From NCBI GenBank assembly GCA_028709235.1, contig JAQVXL010000001.1:46678-110677 (forward strand): a stretch of 64,000 bases of DNA, in the 5' to 3' direction. Below are positions 52,239 through 60,401 of this stretch, in pieces (the stretch's first letter is position 1; every line of letters starts with the position of its first letter). Source of the stretch: Desulfotomaculaceae bacterium (GTDB lineage: Bacteria > Bacillota > Desulfotomaculia > Desulfotomaculales > Pelotomaculaceae). The position numbers and the translations under genes were made by a program. Below the pieces are notes generated by a model that worked only from the letters and a program-made list of their open reading frames with translations, did no database searches and was not told the DNA's origin.

Positions 52239-53414
52239 CTATTGTCCCTTATATACCTGTTTCCAGAAGCTCTCCCCCACGTCAAACTGCAGGCCGAAAA
52301 TTTCCGCCACTGTAGCGGCTATATCAGCAAAGGACTCCCTGACACCAAGGTTCACCCCGCCCAAAACTTGCTTGCCGTATATCAGCAGAGGAACATATTC
52401 CCGGGAGTGATCGGTAGAGGAAGTAGTGGGATCACAGCCGTGGTCGGCGGTGATTATTAAAACATCGTCTTCCTTCAGCGCGTTAAGAAGCTGGGGAAAC
52501 CAGCGGTCAAACTCCTCGAGGGCGTCACCGTAACCGCGAGGGTTGTTGCGGTGACCGTACAGCATATCGAAGTCGACCAGGTTGGTAAAGACCAGCCCGC
52601 TGATGTCGGATTTTATCAATTGCAAAGATTTATCCATGCCCTCGTTGTTGCCCCTGGTTAATACAGCGTTGGTTACGCCATTACCGGCGAAAATATCTTT
52701 TACTTTACCCACTGCGGTAACCGGCACACTGTTATCCACCAGCAGATCCAGCAGGGTAGGACCCGGCGGTTTAAGGGAAAAGTCATGCCTGTTAACTGTG
52801 CGGCGAAAGTTCCCCGGCTCTCCTACAAACGGCCTGGCAATTACCCGGCCTACCGCATGCTCGCCGGTCAGAATTTCCCTGGCTATCCGGCAGATCCTGT
52901 ACAGTTCTTCCAGTGGGATAATCTCCTCGTGAGCGGCCACCTGAAAAACACTATCGGCGGATGTGTATACGATGGGAAAACCTGTCGCCATGTGCTCCGC
53001 GCCAAGCTCTTCAATTATGGCGGTGCCGGAGGCCGCCTTGTTGCCAAGCACCCTGCGGCCTATTTTTTCCTCATAGAATTTTATCAAGCCGGCAGGGAAA
53101 CCAGCGGGATACACCCGGAAAGGCTGTTTCATGATAATTCCGGCCATTTCCCAGTGGCCGGTGGTGGTATCCTTGCCAGCGGACTTTTCAGCCATGCGCC
53201 CGTATGAAGCTGCCGGATTTTCCGCCGGCGGCACACCTTCTATGTTGATTATATTCCCGAGGCCGAGCCGGCCGAGGTTGGGCATATTAAGCCCGCCCAC
53301 GGCGCGTGATATATTGCCCAGGGTGTTGCTGCCGCTGTCTCCGTAGTCTCCCGCGTCCGGCATTTCACCCACACCGACACTGTCGAGCACAAACAATGCC
53401 ACCCTATTTATCAT
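52239..53414 (-). CDS. deoB: Phosphopentomutase
   Basis: [35 protein letters not shown]; start at ATG 53414. Confidence 0.97.
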
Positions 53415-53586
53415 AACAGCTACCTCCAGTATCACGTCATTCACCGTTTTAATCCACCACAGTTTTGCAGACAAAGTCTACATGGTATTGAATCCTCAGT
53501 CAACCCATATGAGTCACTCTTCCAAGTATTTTATCTTTCTATAGCACGACATTTTAAACTTAAACGTCTCACGGCTCATGTCCCAA

Positions 53587-54471
53587 TCAGGCTCTGGGGT
53601 GGGTCCGGTCATATATCTCTTTCAGCTTATTCCTGGTGAGGTGAGTGTAAATCTGGGTTGTGCTGATATCGGCATGACCCAGCATTGCCTGCACCGATCG
53701 TATATCAGCGCCGTTTTCCAGCAGGTGTGTGGCAAAAGAATGCCTGATGATGTGCGGGGTTACTTCTTTTTTTAATCCCGCCTGGCGGGCGTGCTTTTTA
53801 ATGATTTTCCATAAGCCCTGCCTGGTCAGCCTTCTGCCGTGCTGGTTTACAAAAAACGACGGGGTATTCTCTCTGATTAGTTTGTGCCTGCCCCTGGCCA
53901 GGTATTCCCGCAAGCAGCGGGCGGCTATATCACCGAATGGTATAATCCGTTCCTTTTCGCCTTTACCGAAACAGCGGATAAAACCATTGTCGATATGGAC
54001 CTGGTCCAGGTTTAGAGAAACCAGTTCGGAAACCCTGATCCCGGTAGCATACAGGAGCTCAAACATAGCCTTATCCCTCAGCCCCGTCGGCTCTCCGGTC
54101 TCAGGCTGTCTAAGCAACTGCTCCACTTCCTCATAGGTAAGCACCCTGGGCAGCTTCTGGGGCTGTTTGGGTGATTCCAGATCTGCGGTCGGATCCTGAA
54201 CCATCATTCCCTCTCTGACCAGGAATTTATAAAATGACCGCAGGGACGCCAGGTGGCGGGATACTGTTGCGGGAGAGCGCCCGTTTAATTGCAGCGTATA
54301 AATATAAGCCATGACCGTGTTTCTATCTGCTTGCTCGAGAAATTTAACTTTTCGCTTCTGTAAAAATGCCAGATAAGCGGTCAGATCCGACCGGTAGGAT
54401 GCCAGGGTATTCTCAGTCAAACCGCGCTCAACGGTAAGATGATATAAAAATTCGTCCAAAAATTTTTTCAT
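53587..54471 (-). CDS. xerD: Tyrosine recombinase XerD
   Basis: MKKFLDEFLYHLTVERGLTENTLASYRSDL...HIIRHSFATHLLENGADIRSVQAMLGHADISTTQIYTHLTRNKLKEIYDRTHPRA. Confidence 0.96.
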   Translation of the reverse strand: MKKFLDEFLYHLTVERGLTENTLASYRSDLTAYLAFLQKRKVKFLEQADRNTVMAYIYTLQLNGRSPATVSRHLASLRSFYKFLVREGMMVQDPTADLESPKQPQKLPRVLTYEEVEQLLRQPETGEPTGLRDKAMFELLYATGIRVSELVSLNLDQVHIDNGFIRCFGKGEKERIIPFGDIAARCLREYLARGRHKLIRENTPSFFVNQHGRRLTRQGLWKIIKKHARQAGLKKEVTPHIIRHSFATHLLENGADIRSVQAMLGHADISTTQIYTHLTRNKLKEIYDRTHPRA

Positions 54472-54490
54472 TATTTTTGCCTCTTAATAA

Positions 54491-54516
54491 AAGTAGAGTC
54501 TTTAAAGACTCTACTT
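54491..54516. terminator. Perfect 26-bp palindrome, probable terminator hairpin
   Basis: AAGTAGAGTCTTTAAAGACTCTACTT between the 54596 gene stop and xerD. Confidence 0.6.
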
Positions 54517-54595
54517 CCACATGGACCAAAATATCCCTTTATACCTTCATGGCGTCATTGCCCTTTTTAAATATTAGCCATGTAATTACTTTTAA

Positions 54596-55810
54596 TTATC
54601 GCTTTGGGTTTTTACTTCTGACGCTCTTATAACCACCTAGCCAGCGCCAGTAGTTAGAGCGGTATATATCGTAGGGAGTTCTTTGGGGTGGCTTATCCTG
54701 TTTCGATTTCTTGCAGCTGTTGTCAACCTCTGCAGGTTTAACTTCCACTGGCTTTTCTTGAGAGGCTGCTGCAGTAAAGGTTGTTACACTTCCTTCACTC
54801 CACCCCGCCAGATTATACGCCATTGCTTTGTATTCATAGATGGTACCAAGGTAAAGACCGGTAATGGTGAAGCTGAATGATTCAGATTCGAACGAACCAG
54901 TCTCGATACCGACATCGGACCAGCTTTCGTTGCCCTGTGCCCTGATGCGAAATTTTCTTTGATCGCAATACTCTCCGCCGGTATTGTTTATGCTCCCGTG
55001 CAAAATAGCAGATTCCATGCCGATATTAGTTGCTGCGTCTGTTTGAACAGTTGGCAGAACTACCACCGGAATAAGGTCAAAATTCTCGTCTAGAGACACA
55101 GTTAAACCCTTTTCTTCTTGTGGAATTATACATTCATCTATAGCATCTACAATATCTGAGACCACGTCGTTACTTTCCTCTGTTTCATCTTCTGTTACGG
55201 AGTTATCAGTGGTTTCTTCTGTCAACATACCGGATGTTTGAGCATCTGTTAATGTACATTTATCTGTAATCCCTTCAATTTGTGAGTCCATATCCTGGCT
55301 TTGCTCTATTTCATCCGCTGCTGCTTCTTCTGTCGACAAGCCGGTTAGTTGATCGTCTGCAAGTATATATTCATCTGAAACCTCTTTAATATCTGATACC
55401 GTACTCTGGCTGGAATCATCACCGTGTTCTTGTGCTGCATGTATACTTGGTTCAGCAATTACTTCCTGTTCCGGCATCCATTCTCCATCTGGATATTCCC
55501 TTAAAACATCCGGGCTATCAACTCCTTCAGGCAGTATGTATGCCTTGCCGGCTCTTACTTTAAATCCAAGCAGGTCATTATAATCCGGCAACTTTTGTAT
55601 ACAGATAAAATACTCGCCTTGCTTGCCGGTGATTGTGGCGCCCAGCAATCTTTCAGATCCGCCGGTAAAACAGGCGAATACAACAACTACCGCTCCCTCC
55701 ACAGCTGCGGCATCATTGCCCTTAACCATTCCATAGAAATTCAATAACCCATCTAATTTCTGACCCGTAAAATAACACCCGGGGTCAGGCCTTATCAAAC
55801 CGTCCTTCAT
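54596..55810 (-). CDS. Putative spore-surface protein: carboxypeptidase-regulatory-like module, acidic tandem repeats, FnIII-like domain
   Basis: MKDGLIRPDPGCYFTG... after SD GGGGAGCAGG (track start 55945 is over-extended). Module FYGMVKGNDAAAVEGAVVVVFACFTGGSERLLGATITGKQGEYFICI; FnIII-like ATNIGMESAILHGSINNTGG...GTIYEYKAMAYNLAGWSEGSVTTFTA. Confidence 0.7.
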   Translation of the reverse strand: MKDGLIRPDPGCYFTGQKLDGLLNFYGMVKGNDAAAVEGAVVVVFACFTGGSERLLGATITGKQGEYFICIQKLPDYNDLLGFKVRAGKAYILPEGVDSPDVLREYPDGEWMPEQEVIAEPSIHAAQEHGDDSSQSTVSDIKEVSDEYILADDQLTGLSTEEAAADEIEQSQDMDSQIEGITDKCTLTDAQTSGMLTEETTDNSVTEDETEESNDVVSDIVDAIDECIIPQEEKGLTVSLDENFDLIPVVVLPTVQTDAATNIGMESAILHGSINNTGGEYCDQRKFRIRAQGNESWSDVGIETGSFESESFSFTITGLYLGTIYEYKAMAYNLAGWSEGSVTTFTAAASQEKPVEVKPAEVDNSCKKSKQDKPPQRTPYDIYRSNYWRWLGGYKSVRSKNPKR

Positions 55811-56006
55811 AATATCCTGCTCCCCCCAATTTGATTTACTGCAACCCCACCTTTTACAAAAAAAATTGTAACGTACATTAAACCTCAATGCGGAGCCGCC
55901 ATTTCCAGGAGGCTCCGCTTCAGGTCGAATGAAATATGGACCCATTATTTAGATCGCGCTATCCTGAAAATACATACACAGCGATTCTCCCAAAAATGTG
56001 AATGCT

Positions 56007-56321
56007 CTAAGATGACAGTTCGCCGGCATTAGCTCTGATAATTATGGCAGTGGAATCTCCCGGTATTTTCTTTTTGTCAACATAAAGCAGGTAATGGCCA
56101 TCTTTACTGCTGAAGGTCTGGCACAACGGCTCTTCTTTGCCTTCTTTTAAACGGGCATAAACCATGACCAGCGCCCCCGGAACCGGTTGCTTCCCTTCGT
56201 TTTCCACTACAACACCCTGTAAAACCAGAGCATCTACTTTTGTCAACGTAATATCGCCCTCAAAAAGCTTCTGGTCTTCCGACGGGTTTACAAATTCGAT
56301 CGCACTCGACACCCAAGCCAT
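56007..56321 (-). CDS. Small protein built from the same carboxypeptidase-regulatory-like module
   Basis: LQGVVVENEGKQPVPGALVMVYARLKEGKEEPLCQTFSSKDGHYLLYVDKKKIPGDSTAIIIRANAG; SD AAAGGAGG. Confidence 0.7.
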   Translation of the reverse strand: MAWVSSAIEFVNPSEDQKLFEGDITLTKVDALVLQGVVVENEGKQPVPGALVMVYARLKEGKEEPLCQTFSSKDGHYLLYVDKKKIPGDSTAIIIRANAGELSS

Positions 56322-56650
56322 GCTAAAAACCTCCTTTGAAATAAGAACTGCATATGAAAATATGACATATTTAGATACAGCTCTGTGTTTAAAATATTCC
56401 GAAGACAGTTATGGCGTTACGCGAAATACCAATTTTTTAAAAACAATTCAAATTATCTTTGGCACAGTGTAAATATATGGAATTAATTACAACTATATGC
56501 AGCAAATTGTAATCATATAATAATGTCAAAAATACTCCTATGATCATAATATGTTTAAGGCGAACTAGAATAAATTTAATAACAATTCCAGTTACTTCCT
56601 TTAACGTCAAGCTCGTTGCAAATCCTGTGTTTAGGGGGTATTAAATCATT

Positions 56651-57043
56651 ATGCATGCTATGAAACTTCAAGCAGAAACGGTAATTAGTATCAATACAAA
56701 TAAAGATCTGGATGAAATATCCAATCTAAAACTTGATCTTCAACTATATAAACTTGCAGGTCAAGAAAGGCTAACAAAAATTGAACCGGAAACCCAGAAG
56801 GTCAAGCTGAGAGTTAAGTCAATATCTGTATCCCAATTAGGCAAATCGGAAAGCAAGATAAATAAGGTTGAGAGTAAAACGGAATGCAAGCTGAGAGCCA
56901 GGGTAGATACCAAACCGGAAAGCAAACCTGAAACTAAAGCCGAAATCAAAGCAGAGGGCCAGAATAGTTTTATGCCCGATGTACCAACAGTTGCTGTTAA
57001 AGTAAGCTCGGTTATCGCGAAAGCAGCAATCAGACCCCGTTAA
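56651..57043 (+). CDS. Hypothetical Lys/Glu-rich protein with short degenerate repeats
   Basis: SD TTTAGGGGG; C-terminal half KSESKINKVESKTECKLRARVDTKPESKPETKAEIKAEG. Confidence 0.6.
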   Translation: MHAMKLQAETVISINTNKDLDEISNLKLDLQLYKLAGQERLTKIEPETQKVKLRVKSISVSQLGKSESKINKVESKTECKLRARVDTKPESKPETKAEIKAEGQNSFMPDVPTVAVKVSSVIAKAAIRPR

Positions 57044-57055
57044 GAAGGCATTACA

Positions 57056-57099
57056 AAAGAGTCCTTGGTACTTCCGGATGGAAGTATCAAGGGCTCTTT
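57056..57099. terminator. Long imperfect hairpin between convergent genes
   Basis: AAAGAGtCCTTGgTACTTCC ggat GGAAGTAtCAAGGgCTCTTT. Confidence 0.75.
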
Positions 57100-57119
57100 A
57101 GCTTTACGAATATATCAGA

Positions 57120-57911
57120 TTATTTATCGTCACGATCAGCGGCAAGGCCAAATGCAGGTAGCCAGGTTTGCTGGTTTTGGATTATTTTAAATCTAAGCAC
57201 GATAACCATTTTTTCATCAAACTGCGTGAAGGTTCTTTCTTCAAATGGACCACCGGCTATCGGTGTGCGGTTGAGGAACTCATCGAATTCGGTAATGGTG
57301 CTGCTAATTAATTCACAGAACGGAAGCTCGTTGAAGTATTCAAAGCTCTCCTGGTTGAACTCTGACAGATCACCGGCCAATAGCCTATCCTTTTCAGGGA
57401 AATCTGCCGGCAGAGCAGTGGATGATAAGTATTCAAATTCTCTGCTCTTACTGGGTATCGCAGGATCCGGCCTGGTAATGAAGTTTTCAATTTCCGTTAC
57501 GCATCTGAAGGGGACATCAAGAGTGCAGTGTTGAATGTTGCCGCATACGCTGTCATTATCTACACATTGAGTGGCTGTAGCATATTCAATGTTTTTACGG
57601 ACGAAGCCTTCCAGAAACACCTTGTTGGTGTTTTGGATCAGCCTGCATTGAGTAAGTTTTAAACGTTTTTTGACACGTTTGATCTCAATTGCGGGAGTCG
57701 GCAGAGTAATTTCTGAAAAGACATCGATCTGGACATTTACTTCCGCAAGAACAACAGGGATTTTGGCCAACAGTTTTCTTTTAAATTTTTCATCATGGCA
57801 ATAATCTTTTTTAAAATTTACCGGGTCACTATCACATGCTGGCATGGTTTGGGCTGCAACGTCGGCACATAATTGCTTCGGGCAAGACTGCGCTTCGATT
57901 TTCATTGTCAT
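57120..57911 (-). CDS. SPOCS/DUF3794-domain, CsxC-like spore surface protein
   Basis: KIPVVLAEVNVQIDVFSEITLPTPAIEIKRVKKRLKLTQCRLIQNTNKVFLEGFVRKNIEYATATQCVD...GNIQHCTLDVPFRCVTEIENF. Confidence 0.75.
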   Translation of the reverse strand: MTMKIEAQSCPKQLCADVAAQTMPACDSDPVNFKKDYCHDEKFKRKLLAKIPVVLAEVNVQIDVFSEITLPTPAIEIKRVKKRLKLTQCRLIQNTNKVFLEGFVRKNIEYATATQCVDNDSVCGNIQHCTLDVPFRCVTEIENFITRPDPAIPSKSREFEYLSSTALPADFPEKDRLLAGDLSEFNQESFEYFNELPFCELISSTITEFDEFLNRTPIAGGPFEERTFTQFDEKMVIVLRFKIIQNQQTWLPAFGLAADRDDK

Positions 57912-58133
57912 TTTTTATTCCTCCACATTTATAGTCTGAAGACGGTTTTTGTAAAATCACAAAGCTCTGATTGGTAATCCCAATAATATCAAAGCCTTGC
58001 ATTTTTTACCGGCTCCGATTTATAGTAAATAATATTCATCACAGCCTGGTGTTGTTACTAGATATTGTAAGAAAACCCAATTAGTTATAGATTATCTAGC
58101 TTATTTTTAGATATTTTAGACAACCTTGTTGCT

Positions 58134-58235
58134 TTATCGGACAAAAAAGAAAACGCCCGTAAAGGGCGTCGTATCGTCCAGTCCACGGCCTCCTGCCACA
58201 ATAATTTCTACCTCCGACAGTAAGCGCACAGCCTC
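58134..58235 (-). pseudogene. Fragment resembling electron-transfer flavoprotein alpha subunit
   Basis: Minus frame EAVRLLSEVEIIVAGGRGLDDTTPFTGVFFFVR*; EIIVAGGRGL is the ETF-alpha signature. Bounded by stops, no start codon. Confidence 0.45.
58152..58169 (-). terminator. Terminator downstream of spoIIM
   Basis: ACGCCC tttac GGGCGT followed by TTTTCTTTTTTG on the minus strand. Confidence 0.75.
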
Positions 58236-58298
58236 TTATGAGGGTGCTCACTCTTCTTTCTATTTACGTTAAGATTTATTTTATGCAACGCTAGTGAA

Positions 58299-58928
58299 TT
58301 AAAATATATAATTTGCGGCAAGCTTCACCAGAAAAGGGGTGAAGTAAACCTCCACCAGACCGGCTGCCGCCGTACAGGCCAAAACCACAACGGTCAGACC
58401 GCTGTACCCGACAAAACTCGGCCATACGATAAATTTTGAGTTATTAAACCGCCTGGCCAGCAGCACAGCAAAGGACAGCGAAGCTACCCCGGCCAGCAAA
58501 AGGGCTGGGATAAATATTAAGTTCTGGGGCAGGACGGCGGCACAGACCAAAGCAATTCCCTGGATGCCCTTCTCACTGGCCAGGAAGCTCACAGTATACC
58601 CCAGTACAAAGCCACGGGTAAATATTATCCCCAGTATCACCGGAATGCCTATTACAGTCAGGCCAAGCAGGTAAATTGCCAGTATTACAACAAGATCACT
58701 GTAGAGGACGTCTTGCAGGGCTTTTACAGTATCAACCTCGATCACGCCCGCCTGCATCATAAACTGGTCCAGGTATATGCTCAATTCCTGCGCCTGGTCC
58801 GCTTGAAGCCGCTGAACACCAAGAGCTCCCGCCGCTATGCCAAGGGTGAACAGAAGCAGGATCACCAAATAAGCGGGCCAGCTTTGCCGGAGGGAACTGG
58901 CCCAGAGGACCAGAAACCTGTTACCCAT
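58299..58928 (-). CDS. spoIIM: Stage II sporulation protein M
   Basis: Polytopic protein: LFTLGIAAGALGV...FTRGFVLGYTVSFLASEKGIQGIALVCAAVLPQNLIFIPALLLAGV, typical SpoIIM. Confidence 0.95.
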   Translation of the reverse strand: MGNRFLVLWASSLRQSWPAYLVILLLFTLGIAAGALGVQRLQADQAQELSIYLDQFMMQAGVIEVDTVKALQDVLYSDLVVILAIYLLGLTVIGIPVILGIIFTRGFVLGYTVSFLASEKGIQGIALVCAAVLPQNLIFIPALLLAGVASLSFAVLLARRFNNSKFIVWPSFVGYSGLTVVVLACTAAAGLVEVYFTPFLVKLAANYIF

Positions 58929-58990
58929 CCCTCTCCCCCCTTTACAGCGTGCATTAGCTTCCCATCAGTAAACCTATTTGCCGCTGTTTA

Positions 58991-59019
58991 TTTCTATGGT
59001 CAAACCTAAAATTTTATGA
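58991..59019 (-). promoter_or_regulatory. Candidate sigma-E promoter for spoIIM
   Basis: Minus strand TCATAAA - 14 nt - CATAGAAA; weaker match to KMATATT-N14/15-CATACANT. Confidence 0.45.
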
Positions 59020-59085
59020 CTGCCTGCCCGGCCGCTGCTATTCATATTGTGTCGGAATTAAAGTGAATAAAACCGACCCAGGCCG

Positions 59086-59114
59086 GCATAATCCCCCCTT
59101 ACGGCTCATATATT
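59086..59114 (+). promoter_or_regulatory. Candidate sigma-E promoter for the mciZ-like ORF
   Basis: GCATAAT (59086-59092) - 14 nt - CATATATT (59107-59114); consensus KMATATT-N14/15-CATACANT. Confidence 0.6.
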
Positions 59115-59152
59115 AAACATGCTTGCAGAAAAGAAGAAAGATAGGTTTATTT

Positions 59153-59281
59153 ATGAAAGTATACACCCAGTATGAAGGGATTTTCATCTGCGGGAAAATA
59201 AAAGAAGTCCAGCGCCTGCTTGCTCAATACAAAAACAAGCGCTGGACTGTCAGAGAACTAATTATGGGGATGTCTAACTAA
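59153..59281 (+). CDS. mciZ: MciZ-like mother-cell inhibitor of FtsZ, 42 aa
   Basis: MKVYTQYEGIFICGKIKEVQRLLAQYKNKRWTVRELIMGMSN. Ungapped alignment to recalled B. subtilis MciZ (MKVHRMPKGVVLVGKAWEIRAKLKEYGRTFQYVKDWISKP) conserves MKV, G9, GK14-15, E18, L23, Y26, V33, I37. Confidence 0.75.
   Translation: MKVYTQYEGIFICGKIKEVQRLLAQYKNKRWTVRELIMGMSN
59194..59248 (-). terminator. Probable terminator for the M20 peptidase, embedded in the mciZ-like ORF
   Basis: Minus strand AGTCCAGCGC...GCGCTGGACT (10-bp perfect stem, 59206-59248) followed by TCTTTTATTTT. Confidence 0.55.
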
Positions 59282-60401
59282 AAGCTTTACCCCGTGCGGA
59301 TTTTACTATCTCTAACAAGTAAACGGCATTTTCGCTGAGATCTTTCAGGGTTATATACTCCTCTGTGGTGTGCACTTTTTTCATGCCGATACCCAGCACT
59401 GCCGTCGCAATACCCCTGCTGTTTAATATATTGGCGTCGCTGCCGCCCCCAGTTTTTTCGAGACTGGCCGCGAGTCCCAACTTGCACGCGGCCTCAATAG
59501 CCAACCGTATCGGTGGAGAGCCTTTACTTAAATTAAAATCATGGTACTGTGTTTCGGTAAATATATCCACACCGGCGCCGAATTTGCCGGCTGCCTCCCT
59601 GAGCGCCCCGCATATGGCGGCAGTCTGGGCCTCGCGCTTCCAGGCGTCCAGGCTCCTGGTTTCTCCGTCCAGGGTAGCGCTGTCAGGCACTATATTTGTG
59701 GCTTTCCCGCCTTTAATTATGCCGATATTGCTGGTGGTTTCATGGTCTATCCGGCCTAATTTCATTTGAGCTATGGCGTGTGAGGCCACCTGGATGGCAT
59801 TAATACCGTCCTCCGGGTTTATTCCCGCGTGCGCCGCCCGGCCTTTAATAGTAGCCCCAATCCTGTCCTGAGAAGGCGCCCTGGTGATGATGGTGCCCGG
59901 TGGGCCGTCACTGTCAAGCACAAAACCGGCCCTGGCGCTGAGCAGATCATAGTCCAGGTTTTTCGCCCCAAAGAGCCCTCCTTCTTCCCAGATGGTAAAA
60001 ACAACTTCCAGGCCGCTGTGGCTGATGGACTGCTCCCGGATTACTCGCAAAACTTCCAAAATGGTCACTATCCCCGCCTTATCGTCCGCCCCCAGCACCG
60101 TATCACCGGCAGAACGGATAACTCCGCCTTCTATACGGGGTTTAATACCCCGGCCCGGCTCAACTGTATCCATATGAGAGCAAAGCATTAAGACCGGTCC
60201 GCTGCCGCTGCCGGGCATCCTGCCGATGATGTTGCCGGTATCGGAGCCTACCTTCCGGCCGGCCCCGTCTTCAAACACTTCCAGGCCAAGGACTGTCAGC
60301 TTTTCTTTGAGCAGGTCGGCTATCTGCCGTTCTTTGCCAGATACGCTATCGATCTGGACCAACTCTAAAAACTCTTCCACCATTCTTTTGGCATTGACCA
60401 C
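59274..60401 (-). CDS. M20 family peptidase (PepT-like)
   Basis: LMLCSHMDTVEPGRGIKPRIEGGVIRSAGDTVLGADDKAGIVTILEVL; EEGGLFGAKNLD. Confidence 0.92.
   Translation of the reverse strand: MVNAKRMVEEFLELVQIDSVSGKERQIADLLKEKLTVLGLEVFEDGAGRKVGSDTGNIIGRMPGSGSGPVLMLCSHMDTVEPGRGIKPRIEGGVIRSAGDTVLGADDKAGIVTILEVLRVIREQSISHSGLEVVFTIWEEGGLFGAKNLDYDLLSARAGFVLDSDGPPGTIITRAPSQDRIGATIKGRAAHAGINPEDGINAIQVASHAIAQMKLGRIDHETTSNIGIIKGGKATNIVPDSATLDGETRSLDAWKREAQTAAICGALREAAGKFGAGVDIFTETQYHDFNLSKGSPPIRLAIEAACKLGLAASLEKTGGGSDANILNSRGIATAVLGIGMKKVHTTEEYITLKDLSENAVYLLEIVKSARGKAFS

Follow-up and report, generated by a model that had tools for sequence, protein, structure and literature searches.

The four genes that lie between xerD and spoIIM in this genome raise the question of what kind of gene set they form and whether, as the original prediction proposed, it belongs to the spore surface. 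In the window, i.e. the whole analysed stretch of 64,000 nucleotides, this interval holds genes A, B, C and D, with the order D (minus strand), C (plus), B (minus), A (minus) downstream from spoIIM. The block is not a chance assembly, because the same arrangement recurs elsewhere with homologues of all four genes. The predicted four genes are real, and their flanks are confirmed by the curated models TIGR02225 and TIGR02831. The genes are as follows:

53587-54471, minus strand: xerD, reaching the TIGR02225 cutoff
54596-55810, minus strand: gene A, 404 aa, with a B-like module, an acidic linker and an FN3-like C-terminal part
56007-56321, minus strand: gene B, 104 aa, a single beta-sandwich-like module
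56651-57043, plus strand: gene C, 130 aa, basic and Lys/Glu-rich
57120-57911, minus strand: gene D, csxC family, 263 aa with 10 cysteines
58299-58928, minus strand: spoIIM, reaching the TIGR02831 cutoff

The start of gene A was chosen by homology, and a longer reading frame reaches 55945.

Judged by its profile match, gene D is a cysteine-rich protein of the CsxC family. It scores 258.6 bits against NF045794 (cutoff 135, E-value 4.9e-77), and the match spans residues 50-249 of D and positions 1-201 of the 203 in the profile. A DUF7852 match is also above its cutoff. The expectation of a SPOCS/CsxC-like protein was thus correct, with the SPOCS match (PF12673) slightly below its own cutoff (20.6 bits against 23.6). 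Five cysteines are invariant in an alignment of 32 D homologues. A csxC gene above cutoff is present in 24 of the 113 genomes of the order that were surveyed, a number that depends on the use of one genome per species and the inclusion of draft assemblies, as do all genome counts given here. No sequence relatives of D were found in the PDB by profile search, and its AlphaFold model has no confidence (pLDDT 31) and was not carried into the fold search. CsxC was detected in the exosporium of Clostridium sporogenes by proteomics (PMC4942563). Gene D resembles this protein in passing the curated cutoff, in being cysteine-rich and in its length (263 versus 273 aa), but it has 10 cysteines compared to the 14 reported for CsxC and sits in a four-gene set for which no description was found.

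Further csxC genes were seen in other settings. A second, weak CsxC/SPOCS-type protein (353 aa frame) is encoded elsewhere in the genome of the window. In family f11 (L074 9067-11463, L073, L144, L146, L147), csxC genes occur in tandem groups, usually of three, and some of them carry long fused extensions (up to 798 aa). On the mobilizable Bacillus paramobilis plasmid pN24509_3 (L205), csxC genes adjoin collagen-like and spore coat genes.

None of the curated Pfam or NCBIfam models is matched above its cutoff by gene A, B or C. Gene B is homologous to residues 1-100 of A (hhalign 98.3 %, E-value 2e-14), and the sharing of a module by two of the proteins was therefore predicted correctly. Its assignment as carboxypeptidase-regulatory-like was not borne out to the same degree: B and the N-terminal part of A do look similar to this family (PF13620/PF13715), and six strands are predicted in B, but B scores only 13.4 bits against the CarboxypepD_reg gathering cutoff of 32.3 (PF13620; best E-value 0.016 among 12 homologues) and is not classed as a member. 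The 12 homologues of B have 46-81 % identity to the window copy. Structure models were built from the window and L058 sequences with alignments two deep, and the six-stranded model of B has medium confidence (pLDDT 64). Its top fold-search matches are carbohydrate-binding modules and transthyretins, all with E-values above 0.001 and low TM scores, which would allow the term 'beta sandwich' and nothing finer. A profile search found no sequence relatives of B in the PDB, and among 399 genomes of the phylum, drawn evenly and with the other carriers left out, there was no strong match beyond the window's own copy.

Beyond its module, A contains an acidic stretch (charge of the whole protein -39) and is poorly conserved, and the FN3 match of its C-terminal part is weak and below cutoff. 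In the alignment, the C-terminus of A divides the sets into two types, a Pelotomaculum-type with an FN3-like C-terminal part and a Desulfoscipio-type in which most copies end in a hydrophobic segment. G053 has another set of genes like B and A (L145 6313-7776): three module proteins (109, 139 and 215 aa) follow each other in a row, with no csxC within the stretch searched.

Gene C had been described as a Lys/Glu-rich repeat protein on the opposite strand. Composition and antiparallel orientation agree with this, but the protein is more than a repeat, since both ends are conserved in 13 homologues: an N-terminal motif of about 32 aa and a C-terminal motif of about 17 aa enclose a variable linker. 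A profile built from eight copies detected five more at the expected place, from a family outside the profile's input, with E-values of 1e-10 to 2e-12. C is basic in 12 of the 13 homologues, and in all loci that have B it is placed between D and B in antiparallel orientation.

The distribution of these genes in the order argues for a true gene set, hereafter called the cassette. Strong B matches occur in 12 of the 113 genomes, from three families (f1, f5, f16), and the layout D>C<B>A> is found in every genome with B, at unrelated chromosomal sites; in the twelfth (G018), C<B>A> is visible and the contig ends just past C. A csxC gene lies within 1 kb of B in 11 of these 12 genomes, the exception being the contig-cut G018, compared to csxC in 13 of the 101 genomes without B (Fisher p = 4.6e-8, uncorrected for kinship). 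Co-occurrence of the module proteins with the CsxC-like gene had been set as a check beforehand, and the opposite outcome, that they never co-occur, did not hold. Among the carriers, the gaps measure 53-145 bp between D and C, 179-350 bp between C and B, and 23-196 bp between B and A. Two variants were seen: G067 has two csxC genes in tandem ahead of C, and G012 has D>C>A> with B absent.

The upstream regions contain candidate promoters of the late mother-cell type:

58028-58056, minus strand: candidate sigma-K-type promoter of D, AACA-N16-AATATTATT, which fits AC-N17-[AC]ATA
56390-56418, minus strand: candidate sigma-K-type promoter of B (and A), AACG-N16-AATATTTTA, present in 12/12 homologues
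56525-56553, plus strand: candidate mother-cell promoter of C, GTCA-N16-CATAATATG, with the -35 box one base off

The spaced pair AC-N17-[AC]ATA was first spotted by eye in the cassette loci and counted in 160 bp upstream regions; dpaA, spoIVA, other csxC genes and neighbouring genes served as test sets and were not used to define it. Within the cassette, it is found upstream of B in 12/12 cases, D in 7/12, C in 4/13 and A in 0/13, and the counts for D and C rise to 12/12 and 10/13 if the -35 box may be [AGT]C. Outside the cassette, 17 of 23 csxC genes have it. Of the controls in the same order, dpaA has the pair at exactly this spacing in 26 of 29 regions and spoIVA, which we take to be a sigma-E control, in none of 20. 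A stricter form of the motif occurs in 3 of 98 neighbouring upstream regions versus 12/12 for B. When D, B and C are pooled, 25 of 37 regions match at this spacing, compared to a shuffle mean of 8.0 (sd 2.5); across 500 shuffles, the highest count at any spacing was 20. All these promoter counts are drawn from related loci and are not independent. Matches in a standard sigma-70 scan were no commoner than in shuffles. In Clostridium difficile, dpaA belongs to the sigma-K regulon, and sigma-E and sigma-K have the -10 box in common and differ in the -35 box, with ATA for sigma-E and AC for sigma-K (PMC3789822).

B and D thus appear to carry sigma-K-type -35 and -10 boxes at sigma-K spacing, with AATA in most copies of the -10 box versus the usual CATA. 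For C, both sigma-E and sigma-K would fit, because the -10 box (CATAATAT(G/A)) is conserved and the -35 box is weaker, often TC; its -10 box and spacing are the same in five Pelotomaculum-type loci, and CATAATATA is found in the other lineage. A is apparently co-transcribed with B, since no promoter of its own was found and the gap between them is 23-196 bp. Upstream of dpaA (L151-L179), a very conserved promoter-like element (GCACCt...CATATAnTG) lies about 60-95 bases from the gene and could be used as a sigma-K yardstick in this order.

The best explanation, to which a probability of roughly 70 % is given, is that the block is a transferable late mother-cell (sigma-K) cassette whose products decorate the spore surface or coat it with an additional protein layer. 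It is best read as one CsxC protein together with three undescribed protein families, A, B and C. Of the predicted spore-surface gene set, the link to spores is upheld by the CsxC membership, by sigma-K-type promoters like that of dpaA, by the absence of N-terminal hydrophobic segments and signal peptides from all cassette proteins and by spoIVA in all carriers; the last point is weak, because nearly every genome of the order (104 of 113) has spoIVA. The step from a sporulation gene to the spore surface rests on CsxC homology, and we infer the location and the role of each protein. The csxC genes next to collagen-like and spore coat genes on the Bacillus paramobilis plasmid, and germination genes at a distance of a few kb in G010, also speak for this reading. 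The presence of csxC without the rest in 13 genomes, the AATA form of the -10 box in most copies of B and D and the poor conservation of A outside its module weigh against it.

All four proteins, which carry no secretion signals, would be synthesised in the cytoplasm of the mother cell late in sporulation and then deposited on the forespore from outside. CsxC would assemble into the layer and be cross-linked via its cysteines. The small beta-sandwich module would come from both B and A, with B being soluble and A tied in by its C-terminal tail, which in the Pelotomaculum lineage is an FN3-like domain and in the Desulfoscipio-type a hydrophobic stretch, possibly placed in the outer forespore membrane. 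The basic C, with its two conserved ends, might form a bridge among its mostly acidic partners. This division of labour is a guess.

The hydrophobic tail in most Desulfoscipio-type copies of A would also suit a place at the base of the coat, at the outer forespore membrane, and D has a weak SPOCS match as in SipL. Both points would fit genes that are expressed in sporulation but act away from the surface, as factors of the mother cell or of inner-coat assembly; CsxC would then be a SPOCS adaptor comparable to SipL, and A and B would be its assembly partners. This is considered unlikely, since CsxC itself was found in the exosporium (PMC4942563). Furthermore, unlike SipL/SPOCS proteins, D has a SPOCS score below the cutoff and no LysM match, and it is patchy across the order compared to nearly universal basal coat factors such as spoIVA.

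FN3 domains are common in vegetative surface proteins. The FN3-like part of A, together with the weak resemblance of the module to carboxypeptidase-regulatory, carbohydrate-binding or transthyretin-like sandwiches, could therefore mean that csxC alone is a spore gene and that A, B and C encode adhesion or cell-surface proteins of vegetative cells and are located nearby by chance. The missing signal peptides, the fixed gene order in three families and the sigma-K-type motif of B, which is the cleanest one seen, make this highly improbable.

The claim that the block was inserted between xerD and spoIIM was confirmed by empty sites. In seven relatives (G002, G005, G007, G008, G010, G014, G015), spoIIM and xerD are almost adjacent, with a gap of roughly 90-120 bp, and the block is therefore an insertion. 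At 54472-54560 (minus strand), the xerD-proximal end of the former spoIIM-xerD intergene survives together with its hairpin; this stretch is shared with the L103 and L107 sites and marks one end of the insertion. In G001, of the same genus, gene A is found at 95 % identity beside xerD, followed by the contig end. In a sister species (G004; L103 6313-7633), the same gap contains an IS200/IS605-type tnpA/tnpB pair, identified by eye from the protein sequences, so that this gap took up unrelated DNA twice.

Flanking genes differ among the carriers, close relatives excepted; a constant chromosomal location is therefore not what keeps the set together, and the position between xerD and spoIIM is not intrinsic to the cassette. 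The csxC copy of G021 (family f1; cassette at L063 11396-13899) falls inside the f16 group in the csxC tree (100/100 for the whole group of G021 and f16), and G021 also groups with f16 in the B tree (91/93), which suggests that the whole set was transferred between families. A mobile or defence island without a spore role would share the insertion at a site empty in relatives, the varying chromosomal place and the grouping of the G021 copy with another family, but was rejected as having next to no probability, since no integrase or transposase ORF or family match was found within 54472-58298 and no PADLOC match inside the block, B is absent from the phage and plasmid collections, and CsxC membership and the promoters speak against it.

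The proposed late spore-surface cassette is of a known kind, as patchy, lineage-specific coat and exosporium gene sets of the late mother cell exist in Bacillus cereus and Clostridium (BclA, CsxA, CsxB, cot operons), and timing and location would be alike here. It differs from them in having no collagen-like gene inside and in A, B and C matching no curated family; what appears to be new is the four-gene set and these three families. A literature search found no account of such spore-surface genes, and the literature on the Desulfotomaculum exosporium, judged by title and abstract, contained nothing on point. A more detailed picture is possible, with the odds somewhat against it: a self-contained, horizontally moving spore-coat cassette in which the module protein B, a tail-anchored or FN3-bearing A, the two-ended linker C and CsxC build an outer spore layer of their own that is restricted to the Desulfotomaculum-Pelotomaculum order, C being transcribed from its own promoter in the direction of csxC. 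Little work exists on the spore surfaces of sulfate-reducing and syntrophic anaerobes, and the cassette would name three testable candidate families of coat proteins. It also suggests that components of the spore surface can be passed from one family to another en bloc, and AC-N17-[AC]ATA may provide a rule by which more late mother-cell genes of this order could be found.

The spacers of the block are AT-rich as described, with 30 % GC at 56300-56599 compared to about 50-57 % in most flanking coding sequence. Separate hairpin terminators had been reported as well. Between the convergent genes C and D, a hairpin at 57056-57099 (20 bp stem, -32.3 kcal/mol, z -8.8 on the plus and -7.3 on the minus strand) would act as a terminator for both. 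Further hairpins were found ahead of xerD (z -5.0) and past spoIIM (z -2.9), but the one ahead of xerD belongs to the ancestral intergene and not to the insert. Another hairpin, in the B-A intergenic leader (55871-55926, minus strand, z -4.4), is kept in five Pelotomaculum-type cassettes. A search of 53400-59400 against Rfam gave nothing significant. Past spoIIM, a structured stretch at 58142-58270 of the window (minus strand, z -2.5) has a terminator at its end; with no Rfam match and no full-length copy among 40 relatives, it is possibly a small RNA or a remnant.
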